NCBI GenBank assembly: GCA_963402885.1
Contig: OY727101.1
Location: 12,162,917-12,226,916 of the forward strand
Source: Antedon bifida
Taxonomy: Eukaryota > Echinodermata > Crinoidea > Comatulida > Antedonidae
Length of the DNA stretch: 64,000 nucleotides
Direction of reading: 5' to 3'
Below, piece after piece: positions 22,490 to 63,585 of the stretch (position 1 is its first letter; every line of letters begins with the position of its first letter). The position numbers and the translations under genes are program-made. The notes beneath the pieces were generated by a model that saw nothing but the letters and a program-made list of their open reading frames with translations, was not told the origin of the DNA and did no database searches.

Positions 22490-23215
22490 GCAAATCCAAC
22501 GTTGTAACTACGTTGTTGCTCGACGTCGATTCACATTTCAAGTTCATTTCAACATCGTATCGACGTTGCGACTGGACGTCGAAGTAACGTTATATCCGAC
22601 GTTGACACAACTTCAAACAGATGACGTCGACAAAAGCCAACATTTTATCGACGTCGTGACTGGACGTCGATTTAACGTTGATATCCGACGTTGAAAACTG
22701 ACGTCGATTCACCTTTCAAATCCAACTACAACACAACGTTATATCGACGTTGCGACTGGACGTCGATGTAACGTTTATATCTGACGCTGACACAACGTCA
22801 CAAAGATGATGTCGATTCACCTTTCAAATCGAACTAAAAAACGTATCATCGACGTCGTCGCTGGACGTCGATGTGACGTTGATATCCGACGTTGCATAAC
22901 GTCGCAAATATGACGTCGATTCACCTTTCAAATCCAAATACAATCCAACGTATCATCTACGTCGTGCGTGACTGGACGTCGACGTAACGTCGATGTTTGA
23001 CGTTGACACAACGTAAAAAAGATGACGTCGATTCACTCAAATCCAACTACAATGCAAAGTTGTATCGACGTCGTAATTGGACGTCAATGTAATGTTGATA
23101 TCCGACGTTGATACAACGTTTGCATAATGACGTCGATCCACCTTTCATATCCAGCGTCTATTCAACGGCGTGTCGGCGTCAGGGTTCGACGTCGATACAA
23201 CGTATTTTGCCATCG
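22490..23215. repeat. CpG-rich ACGTCG tandem satellite, about six units of 90-110 bp
   Basis: The word CTGGACGTCGA or a close variant recurs at about 22574, 22664, 22759, 22863, 22974 and 23080. Each is followed by GTAACGTTGATATCCGACG, ACACAACGT and a GACGTCGATTCACC word. Units are diverged and uneven in length. ACGT, AACGTT and GACGTC palindromes are strongly enriched against an AT-rich background. No transcript or open frame is apparent. Confidence 0.75.
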
Positions 23216-40600: not shown

Positions 40601-43600
40601 GAAACCCCCGATAACCTATAAATAGACATATTGGAAGCCTAATGGAAAGTGTGGGTTTTTTACACCATTTTGAATCCAAGATGGGCGCACAAATGTGATT
40701 TCAATAATATTTCGGATCCACGAAACCTATTTCATCTCGTAATACATAGTTACGAGACTATTGTGAGATAAGAGCATAGCGCATGCGCGGATCAGTGAGC
40801 TGCTAATCACGCACTAATGTGTTTTGCAAATTATATGTACTCATCGCGTGTTGTTTAGTCTTGCAATTATAGACACCGAAATTTCCAATTTTGAGAATGA
40901 TGTACTAGTCCCTTGAATTCATTGTAATGAAACTGAAATTTATTTTTAATCTTTCAATAGACAAGTATCTATTGGTGTTACCACGGGTTCGTCATTCTGC
41001 GGTGTCGTTGGTCATAAACATAGGCATGAATATACAGGTATGCAAGGGAACATAATTATACACCATTAATAAATAGGCCTACAATCCTGAAACTCAGATA
41101 ATGTGCTTTAAATAACAATACAATCTGCTGGTAACATATTTCATTCATTTGCATCACACCTGAGTGTATCCCTGCCATTTTATTAGTTAATTTATTAACC
41201 TGTTTCGTTGAGTATTAATTATACTTAACCGAAAAGTGATATTTAATGGTTATATAGAATGGTACTATTGCACGTTCACCTTTTTGTAAACATGTGTCAA
41301 ACGTCTTAATGAGTTATTTTGTACGTCTTTTAGAAGATTGTTTTTATTTTACGTCCACACGGAATTGATCACCTCCATATCGTCGCACAATTGAAATCTC
41401 CCTAAAAATGAAATATAATAATACAAAAATATAAAAATATTATTTTATATTAATACGTCACATCCTTTCACCGTTGATCCCGTGTATATACAGCGCACAT
41501 TAAAGAACTTACACGAGTATGGGATCGTCATCCGTTGTGCTGACCTGAGTGGGTGCTGTACGTGGGCCTAATCGTAATTTCCTCAGTTTCATGAAGACGA
41601 TTATAATTAGCCGTAAGTTTAAAAAAAAATAGAAAAAATTAAAATGAGAATTCACACAACTTTCTTTTTTTTCAGTGATAGGACGAAAGGTGAACATGGC
41701 AGCCCGATTGATGATGCATTACCCAGATAAGCTGTCTTGCGATTCGGAAACATTTCATCATTCAAAGCAGCCACGACATTTCTTCAGAGAACTTCCACAC
41801 AAAGAAATGAAAGGTGTTCGCAATTCTGGCACCATTCATGAATATGTAGAGGGATCTGAGTATGTGACGTATCATTTATTTTGTGACGTATTTGTAGTAG
41901 GCCTATTTGATTTTTGTGACGTATAATTTTTGTAACGTATATTTTATTTGTGACGTATAATGTATGTTTATGACGTATAATTTATTTTGTAACGTATAAT
42001 ATATTTCGTGACGTAAAATTTATTTTTGTGACGTACAATTTTATTTTTGACGACACGAATCCGTAATTGTTTTAGCTGATTTCTGTCAGACTTATACCCA
42101 CAGATGCAATCTTTAAATCTGAAAAATATAGTTAATTCAGTTAATTAATTCTTTTATTGAACTTCATTCACTGACATTTAAATTCCAATTATTATAATTG
42201 GTCGGTGATTTTTGTTCGGTTATTTGTAAGTTGATACCGAATACTACATTTGTAAATGTCTTTATGAGGCATAGCCTATATTTAGATTTAACATATTAAT
42301 AAACTAGTTTTTAAACGTTACATTATTTATTTAATAGGAAATGTATCATTGGTTGCCGTTTAGTGCGTCGATGGCGTCACGAAATGACATTAACAGGCAC
42401 TACGCGCCAGAAATGGATTTTGTGTTTTTTTGTTTCTAACATCTACAGCAGTTTAATATTAGAGTTAAACTACGCCGTTAAATAGCTGAATTCTGAATAG
42501 CTGAATCAAAATTTAAAATCTACATAAAAATTGAAGCTAAAATTATGTGTTTTGTGAAACCACTGCTCGCTTAGTGTCACTTCGTGACGTCACTAACGGA
42601 TAATTTATTGCATAATAATGTTATTTTTATTGTCATATTCATTCTCTCACACAGAAATAACATGCCTGTTCCACTTACGGTTCCAGAATTCGAGTTTCCT
42701 ATACTAGGTATCGTATATCATAGTAATTCATCTCTGTAATATTGGTTTACCTTATTAGTGTTTATTGAAATATTAACCAAGTTTAAGATTCTTAGAATTA
42801 GTGCGATTTAATGAGTGCCTAATTATTTAACTATCAGTTATCACCTTACGGAGGTATTTAGTGTGTCGCTTCTCGACAAAGTCCCTCTCTCATTCATCCT
42901 GCTCCCCGCAATTAGCGCCCTGTTCTGACGAGCTAGAAAGAACGAAATACATACATAAATTGATGTGATTATAATTTAAAAGACGAAAAATGTTTGTTAT
43001 AGGAAGAGTAGACATAGTCGTGTGGTTGGTGCGGTTTCTAACGTGTTTCCCCCTTTTGGGATTGTTTATACGTTGGCTAATAATTATAATAGCGAAACTA
43101 TTTGGTGAAGTTTTATGAACTGAGCTAAGTTATTTTGTCTGCCAGTGGTCTATGCTGTGCAATCTTTATCGTTTATGAACTAAGTTCAGTCTTTAGATTT
43201 TAATCCTTATCATCTATGAACTAAATTCAGTCTTGACTGTCAATCCTTATCATCTATGAACTAGAATCAGTCTACTGTCAATCCTTATCATTTATTATAA
43301 TACAAAGAAATATATTAGGACAGGAACACCCATATTTATGAGAAATTTTCTCCTGAAATGAACGAGGGTAACATGTTTAAACTACAGCCAACCTCACACT
43401 GAATTTAGGCTCTGTAAAACACACTGTTTCTTACTAAATGTCATTGTATGTTTTTCAAAGGACGGGAAAGGGAACTTGAAGAATTTGTTACTCAACTACG
43501 TCTGATGAGAGCACCATCAAACGAATCTTATAAGAACATTGTAATATACGATGGAGAGTCAGGTATCGGAAAAACTCGTATGTTAGATGCCATTATTATT

Positions 43601-46600
43601 GAAGCCATGCGAGAAAACGTAAGGTAAGATGAATATAATACTATGTAGATTTCTGTAAGAGAAGCTGCGAATTGTCAATGGGCCCGTTCATGCTTAGATC
43701 CGGTTAAGTTGGTTTCTACCTACCAAAGTTTGCTACATGTCGATTTGAGAGGAGCGAAATCGGCACCTCTATTTAAACGTCAAATTAAACCTTTTCTTTT
43801 TAATTAATTACTAAGTATTGTTAGGCGCTCTGTTCTTTGTAGTGCGCCATATAAAAAACTTTTAGAATAGAATACCGTGCCCCGGAAATCAACATACCCG
43901 GATATAAATATCTAAGCCTGAACAAGTCCAATGATAGCACAAACAATTCCAATTATAAGTTAGATTATTTTGCATACATATTAAGTTTGGATCACGCCAG
44001 TGAGTTGACCAACCACAAGTGACAGTGACTTGCGCTGCGTACCGTACTAGAGTGCGACTTAAGGTTGTACTTTTAGTAGCGATAGGTTATGTCACCCTTG
44101 TGAATAGTTTAAATCAATAATTAATATTTCTTAGATTAATAATTAATATAAGTAGTTAATAATTACTGTACTCCAAAGATTAATCGTTCGTTATCAATAA
44201 CGTTGTTAAGTTTGTCCCTCGATAGTAAAAATACAGAATGGTAGTTTTTTATGTATTTATAAATTTGTACTAAATAAAAATATTAAAATTAATATATAAA
44301 CACAAGCATATGCTTGCCCTTTTATCCGTCAATTGTTATAAAATAAAGTGATACTTTTGAAATATATTCACAAAAGATGGTTGTGTCATATCCCTCGATA
44401 GCTCAGTTGGTAGAGCGGAGGACTGTAGAGTTGTCACTGTTATCCTTAGGTCGCTGGTTCAAATCCGGCTCGAGGGACTTGTTTTATTATTTAAATAAAA
44501 CATTGTGCTTTTTTTTTAATTAATTTCCCTCGGCTCGTTTTTCTTAATTTAAAAACTTACTCATTTTTTTAATTAAAAAAAAAATTCCAATGGACAAATA
44601 ATAAAATAAGTTCCCACACCGGGAATCGAACCCGGGCCGCGGCGGTGAGAGCGCCGAATCCTAACCACTAGACCATATGGGACAACTTGAGAAACGTCTA
44701 AATTTAAGCGCTAATGTTGTTCATAGTTATTATGCATGGAACTTGATTAATTACGTTTGATCGAAGATTTATTTTCCTTATTTTAAATTCAACATTATAT
44801 TCAATAGTTTAGGATATTACATTAAAAAGCATTAAATAAATGAAATAGAATATTATATTAAAATGTCAAAACATTAAATATTTATTGTCTCCCAAAAACA
44901 TGAAAAATGAAGATGAAGGAATCAGAATTTGAATATGCCATATTATGCCCGTTCATTCAATTGTTATTAAATAAAGTGGTACCCTTGAAGTATATTCACA
45001 AAAGATGGCTATTTTGTCATATCCCTCGATAGCTCAGTTGGTAGAGCGGAGGACTGTAGAGTTGTCACTGTTATCCTTAGGTCGCTGGTTCAAATCCGGC
45101 TCGAGGGAATTGTTTTATTATTTAAATAAAACATTGTGCTTTTTTTATATTAATTTCGTTTTTCTTAATTTAAAAACTTACTCATTTTTTAATTTAAAAA
45201 AAAATTCCAATGGACAAATAATAAAATAAGTTCCCACATCGGGAATCGAACCTGGGCCGCGGCGGTGAGAGCGCCGAATCCTAACCACTAGACCATATGG
45301 GACAACTTGAGAAACGTCTAAATTTAAGCGCTAATGTTGTTCATAGTTATTATGCATGGAACTTGATTAATTACGTTTGATCGAAGATTTATTTTCCTTA
45401 TTTTAAATTCAACATTATATTCAATAGTTTAGGATATTACATTAAAAAGCATTAAATAAATGAAATAGAATATTATATTAAAATATCAAAACATTAAATA
45501 TTTATTGTCTCCCAAAAACATGAAAAATGAAGATGAAGGAATCAGAATTTGAATATGCCATATTATGCCCGTTCATTCAATTGTTATTAAATAAAGTGGG
45601 ACCCTTGAAGTATATTCACAAAAGATGGCTATTTCGCATATCCCTCGATAGCTCAGTTGGTAGAGCGGAGGACTGTAGAGTTGTCACTGTTATCCTTAGG
45701 TCGCTGGTTCAAATCCGGCTCGAGGGACTTGTTTTATTGTTTAAATAAAACATTGTGCTTTTTTTTATTAATTTCCCTCGGCTCGTTTTTCTTAATTTAA
45801 AAAACTTACTCATTTTTTTAATTTAAAAAAAAATTCCAATGGACAAATAATAAAATAAGTTCCCACACCGGGAATCGAACCCGGGCCGCGGCGGTGAGAG
45901 CGCCGAATCCTAACCACTAGACCATATGGGACAACTTGAGAAACGTCTAAATTTAAGCGCTAATGTTGTTCATAGTTGTTATTATGCATGTGTTATGCGT
46001 ATGTTAGATGCCATTATTATTGAAGCCATGCGAGAAAACGTAAGGTAAGATGAATATAATACTATGTAGATTTCTGTAAGAAAAGCTGCGAATTGTCAAT
46101 GGGCCCGTTCATGCTTAGATCCGGTTAAGTTGGTTTCTACCTACCAAAGTTTGCTACATGTCGATTTGAGAGGAGCGAAATCGGCACCTCTATTTAAACG
46201 TCAAATTAAACCTTTTCTTTTTAATTAATTACTAAGTATTGTTAGGCGCTCTGTTCTTTGTAGTGCGCCATATAAAAAACTTTTAGAATAGAATACCGTG
46301 CCCCGGAAATCAACATACCCGGATATAAATATCTAAGCCTGAACAAGTCCAATGATAGCACAAACAATTCCAATTATAAGTTAGATTATTTTGCATACAT
46401 ATTAAGTTTGGATCACGCCAGTGAGTTGACCAACCACAAGTGACAGTGACTTGCGCTGCGTACCGTACTAGAGTGCGACTTAAGGTTGTACTTTTAGTAG
46501 CGATAGGTTATGTCACCCTTGTGAATAGTTTAAATCAATAATTAATATTTCTTAGATTAATAATTAATATAAGTAGTTAATAATTACTGTACTCCAAAGA

Positions 46601-49600
46601 TTAATCGTTCGTTATCAATAACGTTGTTAAGTTTGTCCCTCGATAGTAAAAATACAGAATGGTAGTTTTTTATGTATTTATAAATTTGTACTAAATAAAA
46701 ATATTAAAATTAATATATAAACACAAGCATATGCTTGCCCTTTTATCCGTCAATTGTTATAAAATAAAGTGATACTTTTGAAATATATTCACAAAAGATG
46801 GTTGTGTCATATCCCTCGATAGCTCAGTTGGTAGAGCGGAGGACTGTAGAGTTGTCACTGTTATCCTTAGGTCGCTGGTTCAAATCCGGCTCGAGGGACT
46901 TGTTTTATTATTTAAATAAAACATTGTGCTTTTTTTTTAATTAATTTCCCTCGGCTCGTTTTTCTTAATTTAAAAACTTACTCATTTTTTTAATTAAAAA
47001 AAAAATTCCAATGGACAAATAATAAAATAAGTTCCCACACCGGGAATCGAACCCGGGCCGCGGCGGTGAGAGCGCCGAATCCTAACCACTAGACCATATG
47101 GGACAACTTGAGAAACGTCTAAATTTAAGCGCTAATGTTGTTCATAGTTATTATGCATGGAACTTGATTAATTACGTTTGATCGAAGATTTATTTTCCTT
47201 ATTTTAAATTCAACATTATATTCAATAGTTTAGGATATTACATTAAAAAGCATTAAATAAATGAAATAGAATATTATATTAAAATGTCAAAACATTAAAT
47301 ATTTATTGTCTCCCAAAAACATGAAAAATGAAGATGAAGGAATCAGAATTTGAATATGCCATATTATGCCCGTTCATTCAATTGTTATTAAATAAAGTGG
47401 TACCCTTGAAGTATATTCACAAAAGATGGCTATTTTGTCATATCCCTCGATAGCTCAGTTGGTAGAGCGGAGGACTGTAGAGTTGTCACTGTTATCCTTA
47501 GGTCGCTGGTTCAAATCCGGCTCGAGGGAATTGTTTTATTATTTAAATAAAACATTGTGCTTTTTTTATATTAATTTCGTTTTTCTTAATTTAAAAACTT
47601 ACTCATTTTTTAATTTAAAAAAAAATTCCAATGGACAAATAATAAAATAAGTTCCCACATCGGGAATCGAACCTGGGCCGCGGCGGTGAGAGCGCCGAAT
47701 CCTAACCACTAGACCATATGGGACAACTTGAGAAACGTCTAAATTTAAGCGCTAATGTTGTTCATAGTTATTATGCATGGAACTTGATTAATTACGTTTG
47801 ATCGAAGATTTATTTTCCTTATTTTAAATTCAACATTATATTCAATAGTTTAGGATATTACATTAAAAAGCATTAAATAAATGAAATAGAATATTATATT
47901 AAAATATCAAAACATTAAATATTTATTGTCTCCCAAAAACATGAAAAATGAAGATGAAGGAATCAGAATTTGAATATGCCATATTATGCCCGTTCATTCA
48001 ATTGTTATTAAATAAAGTGGGACCCTTGAAGTATATTCACAAAAGATGGCTATTTCGCATATCCCTCGATAGCTCAGTTGGTAGAGCGGAGGACTGTAGA
48101 GTTGTCACTGTTATCCTTAGGTCGCTGGTTCAAATCCGGCTCGAGGGACTTGTTTTATTGTTTAAATAAAACATTGTGCTTTTTTTTATTAATTTCCCTC
48201 GGCTCGTTTTTCTTAATTTAAAAAACTTACTCATTTTTTTAATTTAAAAAAAAATTCCAATGGACAAATAATAAAATAAGTTCCCACACCGGGAATCGAA
48301 CCCGGGCCGCGGCGGTGAGAGCGCCGAATCCTAACCACTAGACCATATGGGACAACTTGAGAAACGTCTAAATTTAAGCGCTAATGTTGTTCATAGTTGT
48401 TATTATGCATGTGTTATGCGTATGTTAGATGCCATTATTATTGAAGCCATGCGAGAAAACGTAAGGTAAGATGAATATAATACTATGTAGATTTCTGTAA
48501 GAAAAGCTGCGAATTGTCAATGGGCCCGTTCATGCTTAGATCCGGTTAAGTTGGTTTCTACCTACCAAAGTTTGCTACATGTCGATTTGAGAGGAGCGAA
48601 ATCGGCACCTCTATTTAAACGTCAAATTAAACCTTTTCTTTTTAATTAATTACTAAGTATTGTTAGGCGCTCTGTTCTTTGTAGTGCGCCATATAAAAAA
48701 CTTTTAGAATAGAATACCGTGCCCCGGAAATCAACATACCCGGATATAAATATCTAAGCCTGAACAAGTCCAATGATAGCACAAACAATTCCAATTATAA
48801 GTTAGATTATTTTGCATACATATTAAGTTTGGATCACGCCAGTGAGTTGACCAACCACAAGTGACAGTGACTTGCGCTGCGTACCGTACTAGAGTGCGAC
48901 TTAAGGTTGTACTTTTAGTAGCGATAGGTTATGTCACCCTTGTGAATAGTTTAAATCAATAATTAATATTTCTTAGATTAATAATTAATATAAGTAGTTA
49001 ATAATTACTGTACTCCAAAGATTAATCGTTCGTTATCAATAACGTTGTTAAGTTTGTCCCTCGATAGTAAAAATACAGAATGGTAGTTTTTTATGTATTT
49101 ATAAATTTGTACTAAATAAAAATATTAAAATTAATATATAAACACAAGCATATGCTTGCCCTTTTATCCGTCAATTGTTATAAAATAAAGTGATACTTTT
49201 GAAATATATTCACAAAAGATGGTTGTGTCATATCCCTCGATAGCTCAGTTGGTAGAGCGGAGGACTGTAGAGTTGTCACTGTTATCCTTAGGTCGCTGGT
49301 TCAAATCCGGCTCGAGGGACTTGTTTTATTATTTAAATAAAACATTGTGCTTTTTTTTTAATTAATTTCCCTCGGCTCGTTTTTCTTAATTTAAAAACTT
49401 ACTCATTTTTTTAATTAAAAAAAAAATTCCAATGGACAAATAATAAAATAAGTTCCCACACCGGGAATCGAACCCGGGCCGCGGCGGTGAGAGCGCCGAA
49501 TCCTAACCACTAGACCATATGGGACAACTTGAGAAACGTCTAAATTTAAGCGCTAATGTTGTTCATAGTTATTATGCATGGAACTTGATTAATTACGTTT

Positions 49601-52600
49601 GATCGAAGATTTATTTTCCTTATTTTAAATTCAACATTATATTCAATAGTTTAGGATATTACATTAAAAAGCATTAAATAAATGAAATAGAATATTATAT
49701 TAAAATATCAAAACATTAAATATTTATTGTCTCCCAAAAACATGAAAAATGAAGATGAAGGAATCAGAATTTGAATATGCCATATTATGCCCGTTCATTC
49801 AATTGTTATTAAATAAAGTGGGACCCTTGAAGTATATTCACAAAAGATGGCTATTTCGCATATCCCTCGATAGCTCAGTTGGTAGAGCGGAGGACTGTAG
49901 AGTTGTCACTGTTATCCTTAGGTCGCTGGTTCAAATCCGGCTCGAGGGACTTGTTTTATTGTTTAAATAAAACATTGTGCTTTTTTTTATTAATTTCCCT
50001 CGGCTCGTTTTTCTTAATTTAAAAAACTTACTCATTTTTTTAATTTAAAAAAAAATTCCAATGGACAAATAATAAAATAAGTTCCCACACCGGGAATCGA
50101 ACCCGGGCCGCGGCGGTGAGAGCGCCGAATCCTAACCACTAGACCATATGGGACAACTTGAGAAACGTCTAAATTTAAGCGCTAATGTTGTTCATAGTTG
50201 TTATTATGCATGGAACTTGATTAATTACGTTTGATCGAAGATTTATTTTCCTTATTTTAAATTCAACATTATATTCAATAGTTTAGGATATTACATTAAA
50301 AAGCATCAAATAAATGAAATAGAATATTATATTAAAATATCAAAACATTATTTATTGTCTCCCAACAACAAAATGAAGATGAAGGAATCAGAATTTGAAT
50401 ATGCCATATTATGCCCGTTCATTCAATTGTTATTAAATAAAGTGGGACCCTTGAAGTATATTCACAAAAGATGGCTATTTTGTCATATCCCTCGATAGCT
50501 CAGTTGGTAGAGCGGAGGACTGTAGAGTTTAAATGTTGATATCCTTAGGTCGCTGGTTCAAATCCGGCTCGAGGGAACATTTTATTCCCATTTTCCGTTG
50601 TTTTTCATTGATAGTGATTTTTTAAACGATTTTACAGTCTTGGGATAATTTACCCTATCTATTTCAAATAAAATATTATAGACAAGAAATAAAATAATTT
50701 CCCACACCAGGAATCGAACCCGGGCCGCGGCGGTGAGAGCGCCGAATCCTAACCACTAGACCATATGGGACAGCTTGAGAAGCAGCTACATTTAAGCGCT
50801 AATGTTGTTCTTGGTTATATTCATGGAATCCGATTAATTATGTTTGTTCGAAGATTTATTTTCCTTATTTTAAAATAAATTCAAAATTGTATTCAATTTT
50901 TGTATCATACTACATTTCTAAGCATTAAATAAATGAAATAGAATATTATATTAAAATATGAAAAAAAGATGTATTGTCTCCCAAAATCATGAAAAATGAA
51001 GATTAATAAAATCAAATTTTGAATAAGCCATTTTTATAAAGTGAATCACTCCCGCATAAAAAAAAAGAAAAAAAACAAACAAACAAACAAAATTGTGTTT
51101 TCACTTATGAAAAGACAAATTTATTCAGGTAAATATTTTTTTGTTTCGATTTAAAGATGTATTGTCCCTTGAAACACAAAAAAATGAAGGTCAAAATATT
51201 CTAAATTTAAATTGGCCATATCAAAGTAATATTAAAGTTATTCACTTTAAGTCGAAAATTCGAGTCAAAAACAACAATTTTACGTAATTAAAAGCTAAAT
51301 TAATTTACAAATTTCATCTGTAAAATCAACGCGAGCGAAAGTAAACAAAGATTTCAAACCACAAGTATACATTATGCATGATGCTAATTAGGATTGTTTA
51401 CAACTCTTCACGGTTGAGAAGGTGTTTTCACACAGATCGCGAGGAAGTTTTATGAGTATGCATACAGAGTAGCCAAATAAGCGCGTTGCATTATGAGGTA
51501 TGTTTTGATTGAAAACTTTGACTGGAAGTCAAAGTTATTTTTTGAACCAAAAAACGTCTGTATTTCAGTTAAATGATTTTTTTTTCGACTAATTTTTGGT
51601 GAAAGTTAATAACTATTATGATACTTCAAAATAACCCACTTTTTTTCGAAATCTTTTATTTTTTATTTTTTTGGAATTTGACAAAGGGACAATACATCTT
51701 TAATTATTGGTCAAAGTAACTATTATGAAACATTTAAAATAAATAAATATATAAAAGCAAGCATATGTTTTAACATTTCATTTGTTAATTATTACAAAGT
51801 AAAGTGGTACCAAAAGCCGCTGTCAGTATCGATCCCTCGATAGCTCAGAGCGGAGGACTGTAGAGTTGTCATTGTTATCCTTAGGTCGCTGGTTCAAATC
51901 CGGCTCGAGGGACATTTTTTTTGTTTTTATTTATTTTTTGAAATATTTGTTTTTATTAATTCTTTTCCATAAACACGTAATCAAGAATGTATAACAAGCT
52001 TTTAGCTTTTTAGCTTTTTTTAAAATGTTTATCTGTGGATGCGACACGATCAGTTCCACCCCCCTTAACAGACACTGGCCGCCGCGGAGAATATGTACAT
52101 AATATAGTACTATTGGTATTTGTCGCAGCCAGACATAAGACAAAAGGACTGTTACGAGTTCCTATCTTGGACAAGACGAGCTCATCGTCATGTTGTTAAA
52201 TGTTCCTGGTATAACAAACGACCACCAACAAGGCAACAAAAATAGAAGAAAATTGTGCTATTTAATTCATTAATTATGTTATTTGTGGGAATAATTATTA
52301 ACCTAATAGTATTTATTACTGCCGTTAATGGTGTAACCAAAATCAACAATAAACAAATGAGTAAAATAATAAAACCAAAAAAAAAAAACCAAAATGCAAG
52401 AGAAAAAAAGAAAGGAAAAATATTATATAAACTAACCACAGTGCATGTGCAATTAAAGAATGATCAAGTGAATAAGATAAAGAGCACAAATGCTACAATG
52501 CAAAGGGAAAATAATATGTTTAAAAAACGAATAAAAAACGCCAAACTAATATATAATAAAATATTATGTTGTAGGTAATTCATCATTTTATATATAAAAA

Positions 52601-55600
52601 AAACTTTTCCTAGAGACCCGAGAACTGGCCGCTCAATACACTAAAATAGTGATAATAGTACCGTAACCGCATAATACAATGGTAATGATATATTTCTTAT
52701 TACAATTTGTATCTTCTTCTTTCTAAAATGACCGTCTTCATAGGCATTAGTCATTGACTGGTTGTTGATATTCGTTACTGTGTATTGGTTACTTAATTTT
52801 AGACTCGAGAGATCACCATCGAAATGTAACGGTAACGAAACATCTGTGTGTAATTTTGTCATGTCTTGGTTTTGCAGAAGTTTGCCTTTAGCATTGACGA
52901 TTAATGACCACAACACCCCTTACTACACAGTTCGAGTCCTCGTCCTAATGCTGTTAGAAATGGAAGGATGCCAGAGCCATTTGGAGCGTGAACACGTGTT
53001 GTTGGAACACATACAGAATGAAGTTATAAGAGACGATTTGTGCTTGTTAAACGACCTGTTGATGATCAAGGTAGTGCAGCAACTTGCATTGTTTGTTAGG
53101 CCTACTTGACAAAATGCTTGATAAATATTTTGCAAGTACAGTATGTTACTTTTTCTTTAACTTGCATGATAAAGTCCATCATTTTCTAGTTTTTTTCCTG
53201 AATTGTTTAGCTTTATACCAAAAGACCATGCCTGTTGATTTACATGAACATCGATATATTGGTGACGTCACAAAGGCGTAATAAAATCTCGAGTTATCTG
53301 TATCTTCAATATAGGCCGAGATATTAAATACAGCGCCCTCTGTCACATTCTGCATTTCTCCAAAGATCTTTTAAAGAAATTTGGTTGATCAAACGTGATT
53401 TATTTGTGTGTGCTTTATTGTATCACCTTTAACGATTTCACAAACTAGCCTAAATATAATAATTACACGGTGCATTTATTTTATTTTTTATGAATCATTT
53501 ATGTATTTTACAGATGCCAAGTAACCCGAGGTTTTTAATGATGGATCGTGTAAGACTTATCACTGAATTCAGAGCATTACTGATGAAAATTGTTAGGCAG
53601 TTTAGTAAAAAACAACCAATCCTGTTCGCGATTGACGACGCTCATTATATCGACAAAGAATCGTGGGATTTCTTTACAGACTTATCTAAAACGCCATACG
53701 TTATGTGCGTCTTATCCATGCGGCCGTTCACAAATGAGAACCAGCCTACTGCGTCGGCTAAGGCTGTTCTTGCCAGTGACATGGTTATGAAGATTCGACT
53801 ACGTGGTTTGAAATCTGAACAAATGGCATCTCTCGCCTGCCAACTTCTAGACGTTGAAAGAGTTCCAATTGAATTGGTCAAGTAAGTTTTAATTGACTTT
53901 TTGTTTCTGTTGTCTGATTTATTTATTCAAGGAGGATACTGACCCCAAAAAAATGCTGACAACCAAGGGGCCCTCATATAAACATATAAAACAAACATAA
54001 TATAAAAATATAAAAGAATTATACAAAAATATACTATACAACTATACAAAAATACACTATACAATACAAAAATATACTGTACAACTATACAAAAATACAC
54101 TATAGTATTGATTTTTTTGTCAGATTGCTGAAAGAACGAAGTCACGGAGTGCCATCATGGTGTGAACAACTGACACGAGAAATGTTAAGTGAGGGGCACA
54201 TTCAAGTTGTATCGCAGAGCAGCTCCTCCAAAGAAGCTAATCACGTAAGAAAAGTTTATGTTGAAATAGTATATATATATAAACATTTGTTTACATATGC
54301 ACTGCAATTTATTAATCGTAAAGAATGTAGGTAACTTAAACAAGATCGAAAACAAATATCATTCGATTTGTTATTGAAAGTTTAAACAATAGGCCTAATT
54401 AGAAATGTTTAAAAGACAGAAGTTTGAGGTTTTACTGTTGCAGTAATAAGGCCTATTAAGAAGACACATTCGAAGTGTCCCGTGATAGTGGGTTGGTCGT
54501 ATAGTAGTGTTAAATGTTATTCATCGTTTTCACGGGTTCCAATTGTATCCTTTGGGGTGCACCAAAGGAGGGTTTCCACTGTGATTATTTTCTCTTCAGA
54601 TATCGGCAAGCATTGAAGCTATCCAAAAGAGAAAGGGAAGTGTTGGTAGTGGTGGTTACAGCAGAAGTCGACGAGGCAGTCTTGATGTAAAGGTAAAATA
54701 TACTTTCAAAAATCAATCAATACATTTATTCAGCAATATATACATTGTTACGCACAATATTGCAAGGATCTTACAGAGAAAAGTTTATTTTCGGTAGTCG
54801 TAAGACCATTATCCATGTCACAAAATTTAGATATGAAATTTGATGGAACCACTAGCTAGACCACATAAGCCTAATATTTCAGTGCGAGACGCGCCTTGCG
54901 AGAATTTGTATGGAAGTTATCCATAGAGAAATATAAAATTGGTTCAGCCTTGCTCTACGAAATCAACCCCGCCTCCTTCCTCTGAATTAATGAACTTGAT
55001 TTCAAATGTTTTCAATAATATTAATAACAATCAGTAAAATAAATAAGGACGTTACATGTTTTTAAAATATCTCGTTCAATAACAGGACTCTGGATCTTTG
55101 AAAGTTCCTGTGTTAGGTACCCAGTTGTTGGAAAGACTTACAAACATAATGGAATCTACCAATGACGATGACGATATGTTTGATGACGAGTTTAATGTTG
55201 GTGGAATGATTTGCATCATAACACCAGGAGTAGTGCTATCAAAGTTACCTGTGCCAGATTCAATGAAAGGTATATTTCAAAATCTAAGAACTAAAGCTCT
55301 CTTTAGGCTATCAAACTAGTGTGATGTGCTCCAATACGGTATTGATATGACGTCATATGGACACATGAAGTTTGATAGTGGAGATTTGATAGAGCTTAAG
55401 ATCATTCACAATTTATAACACATCCGAGTGTATCGTTGCCATTATTTGAAGTCGTTGACTGATCTACGTTGCGTCTGTAGGTTGGATGTAAACTTTGCAG
55501 TTACAAAAGATTTCTTCAACTATAAAATAAGTATGTAAATAAATATTTAAATCCGATTAAACTTGATTTCAATAGATGACTTTTATTTTTAATTTTTTTC

Positions 55601-58600
55601 ACGAATGTGTTTTCCCCTTTTATACAGGAATGTTGATGGCACGAATCGACCGAATGAAACCATCTGAACAAATGGTTGTCAAATGTGCAGCCATTCTTGG
55701 TGTGACATTTACACGAAAAATGCTCGAAGTGATCGTGCCAAACTGCAACACGCGCAAACTCAGACGTTCTTTACAAACACTTATGCAAACGCGCGTATTT
55801 GAGTGCGCAACACCGCCGTCAGATGCGACCCAGACGCGAAGACTCAGCGTTAAAATATCCAGTCAACAGGGTTATAGTAATCGAATGAAAGGTCAGATTG
55901 AATGTTTCTGTAGAGGCACGGACGATGATGCTACCGAAGATTGGGAAGAGTCTTTCCAATGCCTTCCAATCACAAGTTGCAGATTCCTGCGTTTTTGTAG
56001 TACTCTGATGCAAGAAACCGCGTACGGTCTATTTTTGACAAACCAAAGGAAAACTCTTCACGAACAGTCAGCTATATTCCTAGAGTCTCAAGCTCACAAG
56101 TGTAAACACTGTGGAGGTGGTGATTTCATACCTGGGCACCATTCGGAAACTGCATCCGGTAGTACTACCATCATTAAAGGCCACAAGGCGAATTTCTCGA
56201 CGACGTCCGTAGCTTCATCAAGGCGCGGAGCTGTTTCCCCGCAGACTTCAACTGACGAAATATTCACTCCAGGTAAAGATAAATTAACATTAGTTCCCAT
56301 TAAGAAGCAACTCAAAGGCGTACGCGCAACGTAACCAATCACAAGCGACAGTTCGAATGATCCGTCGCGACGTCATTGGTCCATTACTTTTAGTGGGAAT
56401 TTTGTAAGTTTAGGTAGGCCTACAGTATATAACGAGTAACAATAATTGACTTTCAGCAATAATAGAACACAATGTGTTATTGTGACAGATTACTGTGTAT
56501 GTATAACAGCAGTATGCTTATTTTATGTTTCGCAGAGGTAAGTCGACGTCAAATACAAAAACCTCCAGGAACAACGCCAGTGTTAGATATAGGTAGGTAT
56601 TAATAATTTCCCATGGCGCTGAGTAGACCTAGTTTTATTTTGTACATGGTGAAGTTATTATACAGATTTTGCCTGCTTCAAGATGTAATATAACATTTGT
56701 TATATTTTTCTCTCAGAACTATATTCTATACTCTCCCTCCCCTGGGGTATCAAATGGCATATGAAACCGATAGAAAACAATACATAGCCAAAAACCTCTT
56801 TTAAACAGACTCTAAAATAATTGTATTTTTTAATTTTTTTAAAAAAGCATTTTATATCTTTTAAATATTTCGTATTTTACATTTTGGATTTTAACTTTCA
56901 ATCTAATCTCTTTTTAGTATAAGGAATCTGTGCAATTTGTTTCTCTGTGTTTCTGGACCCCAATGGAAATAAGTTTTTTACTTTTTGGGATATGCTTTTA
57001 ACTCGAGTCGGTTGTACTGTACTGTTTTTACTCGGGATACCCGAGTCTAGGACTCACTCATTTTCTCCTCCATCTGGACACTATTGAGTAAAAAATGCGA
57101 TTTATAAAGTACTACTCCTCCCTTTTTCGTTGTAGTATTGAGCTGGGATTTGGCATGAATATACTACAGGGCCATGTCCTCAAAGCTATAGAGCCGGATT
57201 TTTAAATTTGTTTTTTGTTAATTAATTTGTTTAATTAAGATGCCACAATGTGTGACACACACCACGTCGTTATTTTGTTATATGCGGCTTCGTAGTGTAG
57301 TGTTTATCACGTCTGCTTAACACGCAGAAGGTCTCCGGTTCGATCCCGGGCGAAACATTTTGTTTTTAACTTTATGGTGAAAAGTACTGTATACTCAATA
57401 TGATATACAGTATATCTTATTTTTATTATTTTTTTAAATACTTATTTTGTGTAATCGGTAATTATCACTTTTACACATGTTTATTTTGCTTTGTGCTTAT
57501 TACCATATTTATTTGTAATTTTAAATGGATTAAAAAACTTTGTGTAACCCACATTTTTGGTGTAAGAGATTTCGTAGTGTAGTGGTTATCAAGTCTGCTT
57601 AACACGCAGAGGGTCCCCGGTTCGAGCTCTGTTGAACCCTATTTTTCTTAAACTTTATGGTGAAATATACTGTATACGTAATATGATATATAGTATATCT
57701 CGTTTTATTACTCTGGGTACCCGAGTCTAGGACTTACTCATTTTCTCCTCCTCCTCCATCCGGACACTATTGAGTAAAAAGTGCGATTTATAAAGTACTA
57801 CTCCTCCCTTATTCGTTGTAGTATTGAGCTGGGATTTGACATGAATATACTACAGGGACATGTCCTCAAAGCTGTAGAGCCGGATTTTTTAATTTCAAAC
57901 CGGATGCAGCCATATCACGTCTCGAAGATGGTACCGTATAGCCGTATTTGGTAGCGAGGTTAATGATGTGTATGTGACGTTACATCCGGTCTTATGAAGT
58001 CATTACAGCTTCTTTTGCTGTACCCCGAGTATCGCACATTCGTGCTTGTCATTGTATGTATCTGTGTTGACTCGGTTAATAAAGAAATCAATCAATCAAT
58101 CAAATCTTTCTGCCGTCATTTCAACCAATCACATTCTCGTATTTACATAAGCTATTACGATTAGGCCCAAGTAAAAATACTGGTAGTTGTCAAATATATT
58201 TACGAAAGCCGGTTGGTGTATCGTATCCCTCGATAGCTCAGTTGGTAGAGCGGAGGACTGTAGAGTTGTCATTGTTATCCTTAGGTCGCTGGTTCAAATC
58301 CGGCTCGAGGGAGAATTATTTTTATTTTCTAAATAACAAAATAACGTACAGCTACCTTTATGTTGCTCGTTATAATAGCATTACCTATATCAATATGGTT
58401 TTATTTAAAAAAGAGTAATAATTTGGCTTTTAATTGCCAAAAAGATTCATAGATATAGATTATACAATTATGAGTGACACTGCTTTTATTAAATTAAACT
58501 TCTCTTTTCATCAGTAATATCCAGCGATGGTAAAGTTGAAAACAAAAAGACAGTGACGATAAACGAAGATGCCAAAGAAGCGGAAGGACATGAAAACGCA

Positions 58601-61600
58601 TCTGACTTTAACCAAAAAAGACGTATGAGTTTGCGAAAATCATCAATAGCAAGCCAATGGAGTATAATAAGGTTCGTGGTAGGTTTTTAATAAGTCTGCA
58701 GTTATTGCGCGCCATTAATTGCTATACGTATGAAACGCCATGTGTGTCAAAACATTTATCTTTTTACCAATATTATGTCGAAATACAGTCTAGAATCTAG
58801 ACTAGTTTTCATATTACTAGAAATTGAAAAGTGCAAGTGAGTGCCCCGAAAACATCTATAGTATAACGTAGTTTTGATGACACAAAGGACCCTCCCAGAA
58901 GACACACCGAATGTCTATATTATTAGTATAACGCTTCTCAATATATCACACACAGACTATGCATTATACAATCGTCGACTACAATACATGATTTCAATCG
59001 GCAGAGAGCGAAAACCATAAACCCGCCTAGATCGTCTTAGGCCAATGTTTTTTAGTCAAACAATGAACTTTCGGGTCAAGCAATGAGGCGGGAAATCAAA
59101 TTGCTGTAGCGAATATAAATAGCTGCTACGCAGAAATTTAGCACGTTTTCGCTTTCCATGACCGACGCGAAACTACGCGTCGAGTCGAAACGTTTTGCAC
59201 GCTCATAAACGTAATATGAGCATGCGCAAACAGACTTTTAGACTTTATAGATACTACGTGTCATGAAAACCTTTAGTAAAATATTATCGTAAAAATCAGC
59301 ACTGTTCCTTTGCATATGTAGCAACCTTAACTTGTCTTGTACCCATATTTTTAGATTAATAATTGTATTATGTTAGTAATACTGTGTGTTATATATGTGA
59401 TGGAATAATTTTATACGCAACAGCCTTATGTTATGGATTTCTTATGAATACAAATTTTTTCTGTAAATTATTATTAAAGACAGTTAATAAGTAAAGGTAG
59501 GGTACTATTAATATTCATGAAAGCTGCTTGTATTTCCATCCCTCGATAGCTCAGTTGGTAGAGCGGAGGACTGTAGAGTTGTCATTGTTATCCTTAGGTC
59601 GCTGGTTCAAATCCGGCTCGAGGGACTGTTTTATTTTTTTGTTTGAAATTGTTTAAAAAAACGGTTTTTAAACAAGGCAATCGACATAATAGAAACAAAT
59701 ACAAACAATTTTTTAAATAAAAATGCTTACTGTTTAATTTGTAAATTATTATTAAAATCGGTTGTTAAATACTGGTAGGTGTACATTATATTTACAAAAG
59801 CCGCGTGCTGTATCATATCCCTCGATAGCTCAGTTGGTAGAGCGGAGGACTGTAGAGTTTTCACTGTTATCCTTAGGTCGCTGGTTCAAATCCGGCTCGA
59901 GGGAAAATTTGTTTTTATTTTCTGATTGACCGAAAAATGTACAGATTTTGTTATATTACGTTTCAAAATAGACTTACCAATGTATTTTTATTTTTAAGAA
60001 AAAATCCTCACATCAGGAATGGAACACATGCCGCGAGGGTTAGAATCCTAACCGCTAGACCATTATGACTATTGTAACCATTATCAACCTATAGTGTGTA
60101 ATGATAAATTTAACTAGAAATCGTGTAGAAAAGTGCACCAAAAAAAAAAGCTTCAATACGGTTTGGAAGCCTTTCGAGCACAAAGTTATAGAACCGGAGA
60201 TTATAGTATGATATTGATAACTTATTACTTAAGAAGATTTGTAAATTATTATCAAAAGCGGTTAATAAATACGGGTAGTTTTAAAATATATTTACAAAAG
60301 GCGCTTTGTGTATCGTATCCCTCGATAGCTCAGTTGGTAGAGCGGAGGACTGTAGAGTTGTCATTGTTATCCTTAGGTCGCTGGTTCAAATCCGGCTCGA
60401 GGGAAAATTTGTTTTTATTTTTTGAATAACCGAATAATGTACAAATAATAATTTATTCGTTATAGTAGCATTACCTATATCAACATAGTTTTATTTCATT
60501 TTTTTTATGTGAAAAAACCCAGTCTACATCACATTATTTAACGTAAATAAAAACATACAAAACAACATTGTTTCCAGTAACCTAAAAATAAGTCGCCCAC
60601 AGAAGTGGGTAAAAAGAAAATAAAATGCAAGCAAAAAATATACTCCCCACCCGGGAATCGACCCCGCACCATATGGCACAAGCTGATGATCAGTTTGATT
60701 GTTAGCGATTACCTAGATTATGTAATAATATATTTGGAGCACAAAGTGCACTCACTACCAACAAGATAAGGCACAGAGTATTTTTAACATTTTGAGGGAT
60801 TTTTAATTGCGCTTTTATTGGTCATGAGGAAGTCCAGCTTCCTAACCAGAACCACTGTACTCCATGTGACGTATTAATTGTTAGTTAATACCTGGTTAAT
60901 AGCGTCCAATAAAAATTTAATTTTCATGGAATATACTTTCTTAATCTTTTGTTTGGTTAGGAAGGAAGTGGTATGGTAAGAATACCTCTAATGAGATTTA
61001 GGTGACTGACCCGATCAACCTAGTAGGCCTAGGCCCAATACGAAAAGAATCGTTTGTTTTTCATTATCATAATACCTTTTGGTCCATTATTAATTTACTA
61101 CTTTACGCGTGTAAAATGCTTGACTGTAGGCCTACCTGACTGTTTTTGTTATCGAACTCTAGGTGTGTAGTAACGCCTAGGCACCATTGACTGAATAGTA
61201 GGCAACAGGGCGTTTTCTGTTAAACTTAATGAATGCGTTTAAGTTTTTATTGTCCAATTTAAAAATTAAATTTGTTTTTGTATACACTACATCAAAAAAT
61301 ACTATACAGAATATTATATAAGAATATACATCAATTATTCAATCAATCTAAAATGTTATGAATGAATGAATTAACTTTAACTCAACTTTCCTACATGAAT
61401 TATGATTAAAATGTCTATAATATCCACCGTACGATAAATGTTAAAGTATTTTTCTATGAGGTGTTTTGAACTAGGCCTATTACTTTTGAACACTATATCC
61501 TATAATTATTATAACAATATATGCAGTACTGGGCTGAGAATCGGATGGCTAAAAAAAGTGGATTTAGACATTTTCACACTTCTCTCTGATCATAGTAAAG

Positions 61601-61869: not shown

Positions 61870-62590
61870 GTAAGTGCAGGCCTAGTTGTTTACAGCCTTA
61901 GTCAAACTATAACCATGATATGATTGTTTTCTGCACTCTGGCAAAAATAACATAGTAAAGTAAGTAAAAAGAAATCATAGTATTAAAGTAGAATTCGATA
62001 GACAATAGCCATTGGTATAATTAAGAAGGAAAACATCACATCGTTACAGTAAGGAATATGCTTTAATTAGCGGTTATGCAATTCGTTCTACGACATAAAA
62101 TAAGAAAGTCAACACAGGCGGTTTGCATGCAACCCGAAGATTTGTTAGGCGATATAGATGATGTGAGTGTTTTGAGTAGGCAATTTCAACCATACTGTGC
62201 TAATATCAGTGGTTCATCCAGGAATATGAAAATATGAGGCCAATAATTGCAACGAACCATCTACTGTATCTCAAGTTCGTGTCGTGTCGACTGTAGATGT
62301 TATGTATTTGTATGTTGTTGGTTTTGACAGCAATGAAAACGTGACCATCACCTGTCCCACAAAACCACAACAGTGTGGTAGTTGAGGATATAGTGCTATA
62401 CCTAAAAACAACAGGTTTAACGAACATAGCATTTTTATGTCATAGATTAGAATATACCTTTCGGATATAGACTAGACTAATAATAATGTAGCCTATTATT
62501 CTTAGCGGATCATTAACAACAAAAATAAACCAGTAAAGTACAAGGGCACTCGTCGTGTTAATTCCAGTGTTTTAGTCGGGGGTTCCATTT

Positions 62591-62870
62591 TAGAAACGAC
62601 TGAATTTAAGCGCTAATGTTAGCAACGACTGAATTTAAGCGCTAATGTTAGCAACGACTGAATTTAAGCGCTAATGTTAGAAACGACTGAATTTAAGCGC
62701 TAATGTTAGAAACGACTGAATTTAAGCGCTAATGTTAGCAACGACTGAATTTAAGCGCTAATGTTAGCAACGACTGAATTTAAGCGCTAATGTTAGCAAC
62801 GACTGAATTTAAGCGCTAATGTTAGCAACGACTGACTTTAAGCGCTAATGTTAGAAACGACTGAATTTAA
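62591..62870. repeat. 29-bp minisatellite, nine full units and one partial
   Basis: Unit AACGACTGAATTTAAGCGCT followed by AATGTTAG and C or A. Units differ only by that C/A and one A-to-C change in unit nine. The last unit is broken at its TTTAA by the following DNA element. The core AATTTAAGCGCTAATGTT also occurs 5' of the tRNA-Glu genes. Confidence 0.92.
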
Positions 62871-63455: not shown

Positions 63456-63585
63456 AAATTGTTTCTTAGATCACATTCATATGTTTCAAATTGTTTCTTA
63501 GATCACATTCATATGTTTCAAATTGTTTCTTAGATCACATTCATATGTTTTAAATTGTTTTTTAGATCACATTCATATGTTTCAT
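63456..63585. repeat. 32-bp tandem repeat, four units, in the retrotransposon 3' region
   Basis: The word AAATTGTTTCTTAGATCACA followed by TTCATATGTTTC is repeated four times, between the pol stop codon and the probable LTR. Confidence 0.85.

Follow-up and report, generated by a model that had tools for sequence, protein, structure and literature searches.

Can a protein-coding gene transcribed by RNA polymerase II (Pol II) hold, within its own introns, a working supply of transfer RNAs (tRNAs) made by RNA polymerase III (Pol III)? The question is raised by a 64,000-nucleotide stretch of the genome (315.6 Mb) of the crinoid Antedon bifida, located on contig OY727101.1 (C14:12162917-12226916) and referred to here as the window, in which introns of ADCY10, the gene for soluble adenylyl cyclase, carry many tRNA-Tyr and tRNA-Glu genes. 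Genomic context and patterns of sequence conservation suggest that this is likely the case: a megacluster of Pol III genes, nested in the introns of a Pol II gene, probably functions as tRNA supply.

tRNA genes in the introns of ADCY10

ARAGORN and the Rfam covariance model RF00005 (cut-off 29 bits) concur on 24 tRNAs in the window: 14 Tyr(GTA), 9 Glu(CTC), and 1 Val(AAC). This bears out an earlier note on the window, which had described an amplification of Tyr and Glu copies, together with decayed Glu and Val copies, in three ADCY10 introns. That note had also named a pseudogene check beforehand; carried out with Rfam, it places all 24 tRNAs above the cut-off, with scores of 45.0–60.6 bits. 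The reported strand pattern is likewise recovered in the window, with 14/14 Tyr on the sense (+) strand of the gene and 9/9 Glu on the antisense (-) strand; the Val is on the sense (+) strand. Most window Tyr are labeled '???' by ARAGORN, owing to their intron, and a single 'Asp' call at 51834 proved to be a Tyr without 7 bases of the D arm.

The identification of the host gene also stands: + strand exons align with human ADCY10 entries of the PDB (4clf and kin), with E values of 2e-17 and 4e-5. A coding exon from the AAA/NTPase part of the protein (43461..43623, +) precedes the first tRNA-bearing intron and joins in frame to the exon that follows it (52878..53070, +, right end approximate), reading ...MRENVR at 43623 and SLPLAL... 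from 52878. In the gene model, the intron between them (43624-52877) contains 10 Tyr and 9 Glu. A further coding exon (55628..56272, +, right end approximate) encodes a 220-aa stretch whose protein search finds a single genomic place at E 0.001. Downstream, the between-exon stretch at ~56.3-58.5 kb contains the Val and one Tyr, and that at ~58.7-61.66 kb contains three Tyr; a small extra exon is possible in each. Exons were ordered using tblastn with the human ADCY10 protein, and in the window they run from 25.6 kb to 61.8 kb.

The window captures only the left edge of the cluster. Joining 20 kb of upstream sequence, in which no tRNA was found, and 80 kb of downstream sequence to the window gives a 164-kb stretch, in which the cluster reaches ~65 kb past the window. 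ADCY10 as a whole contains 185 Rfam tRNA matches: 53 Tyr, 83 Glu, 47 Val, and 2 Ser, with class assigned by the anticodon region. This total comprises the 24 window tRNAs, 83 matches in five further pieces (L005-L007, L020, L021), and 78 in three others (L008, L018, L019), the last figure being what remains of 94 Rfam matches once those of L022 (15) and L023 (1) are set aside. With introns allowed, ARAGORN makes 182 calls, some of them misreadings, across the same 164 kb, compared with the 185 from Rfam; its Tyr calls with a long intron (~330 nt) were rejected as ordinary Tyr fused with a downstream orphan 3' half. Strand segregation extends throughout, with Tyr (53/53), Val (47/47), and Ser (2/2) in sense orientation and Glu (82/83) in antisense.

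The majority of these matches, 159 of 185, fall within one giant intron of 64,352 bp. It is preceded by the exon at 61662..61869 (+), with its donor at 61870, and extends to extended position 126221. Coding sequence breaks off at 61869 (...AVTTENNLQ) and resumes at 126222 (ALSYLNEAQELIKTL...); both exon ends are in phase 0, and they meet at a Q-to-A junction, with zero residues missing relative to the human protein. Matches to the ADCY10 C-terminus continue collinearly beyond the cluster, at extended 126.2, 127.8, 140.7, 141.2, 141.8, and 142.3 kb. By this gene model, the tRNA cluster is nested between consecutive ADCY10 exons.

Some diversity is apparent within the tRNA classes. Tyr introns measure 13, 15, or 24 nt in 50 of 52 copies, and 12 and 17 nt in the remaining two. 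Among the 83 Glu, 45 have a CTC anticodon loop; the other 38 comprise 35 with one common TTC loop and 3 that differ. Most of this second class (extended 71.9-125 kb) has a Glu(CTC)-like body in which two anticodon-loop sites are changed, giving TTC. From their sequence, these copies look as if the anticodon shifted first and amplification followed, unlike the Glu(TTC) isodecoder on C11 described below. ARAGORN also recovers a Glu-type body with a Lys anticodon (TTT) at L005:8759-8832.

Growth by tandem duplication

The first tRNA-bearing intron contains three tandem copies of a 2,421-bp unit, starting at 43577, 45998, and 48419, which match one another near-perfectly. The unit begins within the exon, such that the last 47 nt of the exon and its donor GTAAGATG are duplicated; in its complete form the unit comprises three Tyr-Glu pairs in convergent orientation. 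Copy 1 (43577..45997, +) contains pair A (Tyr A1, with a 13-nt intron, 44392..44477, +; Glu 44610..44682, -), pair B (Tyr B1, 45023..45108, +; Glu 45230..45302, -), and pair C (Tyr C1, 45642..45727, +; Glu 45859..45931, -). Copy 2 (45998..48418, +) includes the duplicated exon end, with a donor-like GTAAGATG at 46045, and repeats all three pairs: Tyr A2 (46813..46898, +) with Glu (47031..47103, -), Tyr B2 (47444..47529, +) with Glu (47651..47723, -), and Tyr C2 (48063..48148, +) with Glu (48280..48352, -). Copy 3 (48419..50212, +, right end approximate) likewise has an exon-end copy, with a donor-like site at 48466, and lacks pair B, leaving Tyr A3 (49234..49319, +) with Glu (49452..49524, -) and Tyr C3 (49864..49949, +) with Glu (50081..50153, -). 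The Glu of the two B pairs have two T-stem changes (2/9 window Glu; 48.7 bits).

Beyond these repeats, the same intron holds Tyr D (50489..50576, +), which has a different intron of 15 nt and is paired with Glu (50699..50770, -), and Tyr E (51834..51912, +), the copy with the 7-nt D-arm deletion, which has probably decayed. The Val(AAC) lies at 57286..57358 (+; 45.0 bits), followed by a decayed Val copy outside the ARAGORN and Rfam match sets (57571..57636, +; 86% over 66 nt), and by Tyr F (58227..58312, +). The third stretch holds Tyr G (59540..59625, +), Tyr H (59819..59904, +) with a convergent, decayed Glu (60009..60063, -; 73% over 62 columns), and Tyr I (60319..60404, +).

Several descriptions in the earlier note hold in part. 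Convergent Tyr-Glu pairs ~130 bp apart are found for 9 of 14 window Tyr, and a tenth has a decayed Glu 105 bp downstream. The flanks of older copies do differ, as claimed, whereas those of corresponding copies in the 2,421-bp repeats, which account for 8 of 14 window Tyr, do not. Introns also differ in sequence, with three 13-nt sequences and one of 15 nt, but length is constant at 13 nt in 13/14.

The near-identity of the 2,421-bp copies indicates that part of the array is young. Across the cluster, units are arranged head to tail, and certain distances between Tyr copies recur (~620-630, 745, 1,067, and 589 bp). The array has thus expanded through tandem duplication, the duplicated units being of Tyr-Glu and of Val. 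Duplication of one Tyr-Glu layout and one Val layout is sufficient to produce the segregation of sense and antisense copies. A special meaning of the strand pattern is therefore not supported, and general collision avoidance is rejected, as transcription of the Glu genes would run head-on into that of ADCY10.

Constraint on tRNA bodies and terminators

To compare copies across the cluster, 52 Tyr (leaving out 51834) were divided into the window group, a 24-nt-intron group, and a 15-nt-intron group, with at most 150 random pairs per comparison. Tyr bodies are highly alike in the three pairwise group comparisons (0.993, 0.971, and 0.964). Upstream flanks, in contrast, are no more alike between groups (0.562, 0.597, and 0.547) than random regional pairs (0.56). 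The suggestion in the earlier note that the mature tRNA is under selection or subject to gene conversion is thus sustained, with bodies at 96-99% between lineages, upstream flanks at 55-60%, and random pairs at 56%. Downstream flanks fall at 0.62-0.64, save for 0.886 between the two later groups, and the last four window Tyr have bodies identical to array copies (1.0) with upstream flanks at 0.70. The mature Tyr sequence is the same in 37/52. Other classes follow a similar pattern: mean site variability is 0.023 in Glu bodies versus 0.061-0.19 in their flanks, and 0.043 in Val bodies versus 0.16-0.34.

Candidate terminators are also retained. A TTTT run occurs within 30 nt downstream of 53/53 Tyr, 79/83 Glu, 46/47 Val, and 1/2 Ser, against a background of 22-25%; T-runs thus lie behind 178/183 Tyr, Glu, and Val matches. 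The sequence patterns of the bodies fit selection, gene conversion, or both as the source of their conservation, and do not separate the two.

Window Tyr copies (44.3-60.4 kb), old ones included, have a similar stretch ~20-45 bp upstream (of the type ATATTNACAAAAG); by eye, no such stretch was found upstream of three later-group Tyr copies.

Genome-wide share of the cluster

The earlier note had proposed a genome-wide count of Tyr and Glu genes, and core-pattern counts show a strong concentration at this locus. These shares depend on the cores chosen; a tRNA scan scored 63 of 30,430 candidates. A 27-nt Tyr core, with up to 2 mismatches, has 53 of 58 genome-wide matches in the ADCY10 locus, and an exact 41-nt Glu(CTC) core has 41 of 42. 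A further Glu(CTC), with changes, occurs at C14:11.63 Mb. As a check on chance, reversed patterns gave 0 genome-wide matches in all six pattern searches.

Glu as a whole is more widely distributed. A 40-nt core, with 80/81 matches in the locus, had suggested a supply exclusive to ADCY10; this is refuted by a 23-nt core allowing up to 3 mismatches, for which 85 of 132 genome-wide matches are in the locus and 47 outside (among the best 100 of the 132 places, 16 of the 47 outside are listed). These include a tandem array on C11 with a ~180-bp period and at least 13 places, of which 3/3 read are a Glu(TTC) isodecoder. Val is likewise not exclusive to ADCY10, with 51 of 153 core matches in the locus (the best 100 of 153 places being listed) and a second array of 48 Val at C14:13.13-13.15 Mb (L029-L031).

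A probable nested tRNA supply and its alternatives

The reading that we consider likely is that the cluster serves as a working tRNA supply. Internal promoters and their own terminators would allow Pol III to transcribe the tRNAs independently of ADCY10, and the cluster may supply most of the tRNA-Tyr and tRNA-Glu(CTC) of the animal. Unequal crossing-over between repeats would expand and homogenize the array, selection on tRNA output would keep the bodies, and the strand pattern would be inherited from the founding units. Introns could host such an array since splicing removes the inserted sequence, and since the animal may make little use of ADCY10 beyond the germ line. In Caenorhabditis elegans, Pol III occupancy of intronic tRNAs is described as lower on the host's strand than on the other (PMC4999229); if this bias holds here, ADCY10 transcription would burden Tyr and Val more than Glu. 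Soluble adenylyl cyclase is described as having a role in echinoderm sperm (PMC12867704), and such an effect might be confined to that lineage.

Several observations weigh against this reading. The extended cluster (71.4-122 kb) contains 42 orphan 3' halves of Tyr, each lacking its 5' half; the 16 inspected share a common upstream junction, and their simplest reading is as amplified relics. Decayed Glu and Val copies are present in the window, some of the 185 matches are weak (the lowest at 30.2 bits), 15 of 52 mature Tyr carry private changes, and 1 of 83 Glu lies on the opposite strand to the rest. Flanks above the random level (0.70 upstream, 0.886 downstream) imply that part of the likeness among copies reflects recent common origin, and gene conversion without function could also keep bodies alike. 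Among the post-cluster exons, just one, the last, reaches significance by itself (E 4e-5); the remaining ones are weak matches (E 0.25-6.4) supported by their order and open frames. Finally, other parts of the genome hold 5 Tyr cores, at least 2 Glu(CTC), and one array each of Glu(TTC) and Val, so the ADCY10 cluster may not be the main source of these tRNAs.

A first alternative is an array that is largely redundant, amplified by recombination and silent in most tissues, with the cell using a few copies elsewhere. The near-identical young repeats, the orphan halves and decayed copies, and the Tyr and Glu copies at other loci are all consistent with this, and there is a precedent in the Ser-Tyr-Tyr (SYY) cluster of Arabidopsis (PMC12308677). 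However, bodies are kept even between lineages whose upstream flanks are saturated, terminators are kept, and only 5 Tyr cores lie outside the locus; a mostly silent array is accordingly unlikely.

It is also conceivable that ADCY10 acts as a switch on the tRNA pool, with Pol II traffic lowering the sense Tyr and Val more than the antisense Glu, or with opened chromatin raising all of them. A switch of this kind is quite improbable; if real, it would couple expression of a cyclic AMP gene, for example in the male germ line, to decoding capacity through two isotype groups on opposite strands.

We give still less credence to retention of the array for some influence on ADCY10 or chromatin, whether as a boundary, through Pol II pausing, or in splicing control. 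The density and position of the tRNAs would suit such a role; a boundary function has been proposed for a human tandem repeat of tRNA genes (tDNA; PMC4041453), and a host promoter is described as influencing intronic tRNAs in C. elegans (PMC4999229). Conservation of Tyr and Glu, however, spans the whole tRNA body and not a binding box alone.

An assembly artifact, in which repeats were multiplied or misplaced, is very improbable: the three 2,421-bp copies are almost identical, as such an error would have them, but there are zero N runs from 44 to 126 kb, many units differ in sequence and spacing, and exons are collinear on both flanks. The copy number of the array may nonetheless be inexact. 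Least credible is an accumulation of tRNA-derived retroposons (short interspersed elements) at one locus, which would explain the many copies of tRNA-like units, but not the retention of pre-tRNA introns and terminators in Tyr copies, nor the concentration of Tyr and Glu(CTC) cores at a single locus in place of dispersal.

Other features of the window and genome

Arrays of tandem tRNA genes are a usual feature of the genome. Others, of Lys(TTT), Glu(TTC), Ser(AGA), and Val, occur at C13:4.536-4.548 Mb (L001, L011), C11:17.28 Mb (L032), C14:13.08 Mb (L022), and C14:13.13-13.15 Mb. A tandem tRNA-Cys(GCA) array with a 137-bp period includes two members that combine a Cys body with the Tyr anticodon GTA (L002:3611-3685 and L002:4158-4229; C1:13.7586 and 13.7592 Mb). 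Contig C27 (15,844 bp) is the mitochondrial genome, in which COX1 residues are conserved when read with the echinoderm/flatworm code (AAA=Asn, AGR=Ser, ATA=Ile); features of this COX1 mark it as that of an echinoderm. Within the window, a likely ubiquitin ligase gene, which we take to be RNF14-like, lies at 2.9-9.5 kb (+), with exons matching RWD and IBR domains and, weakly, RING. Short tandem repeats occur at 62590-62870, 63456-63584, and 22688-23153, with units of 29, 32, and about 105/216 bp, respectively.

Comparison with known systems

The locus shows how most of one isoacceptor family can become bound to a single place in the genome: most of the detected tRNA-Tyr genes, and nearly all detected tRNA-Glu(CTC) genes, lie within introns of one gene. 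The same DNA would have to serve two transcription systems. The 64-kb intron, with its 159 matches and adjoining sense and antisense sets, offers a natural setting in which to test how a template is shared between Pol II and Pol III, and the intron lengths of the Tyr copies provide tags to distinguish which copy groups are expressed.

No comparable cluster was found by title or abstract start in the open-licence PubMed Central (PMC) literature, which is weak evidence of absence. Intronic tRNAs in C. elegans are also Pol III genes, occurring on both strands within introns of Pol II genes (PMC4999229), whereas here they form tandem arrays, a single gene holding 185 matches and a single intron 159 of them. 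Among echinoderms, the sea cucumber Apostichopus japonicus is reported to have 49 intronic tRNAs among 1032 tRNA genes, tRNAs being scarce in deuterostome introns (PMC8580430); those 49 are the overall number, compared with 185 matches in a single gene here. The human variable tDNA tandem repeat at 1q23.3 is similarly a tandem array of tRNA-bearing units, in which human-mouse conservation is described only in the tRNA genes and a CTCF site, but its units are 7.3 kb and GC-rich, and it is not placed in the introns of one gene (PMC4041453). The Arabidopsis SYY cluster is likewise a tandem tRNA-Tyr array that grew by duplication; it differs in being described as heterochromatic and silent in most tissues, is not described as intronic, and pairs Tyr with Ser (PMC12308677), where the ADCY10 cluster pairs it with Glu and Val. 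Intronic tRNAs and tDNA arrays are thus both known, and it is in scale that the ADCY10 cluster is extreme.

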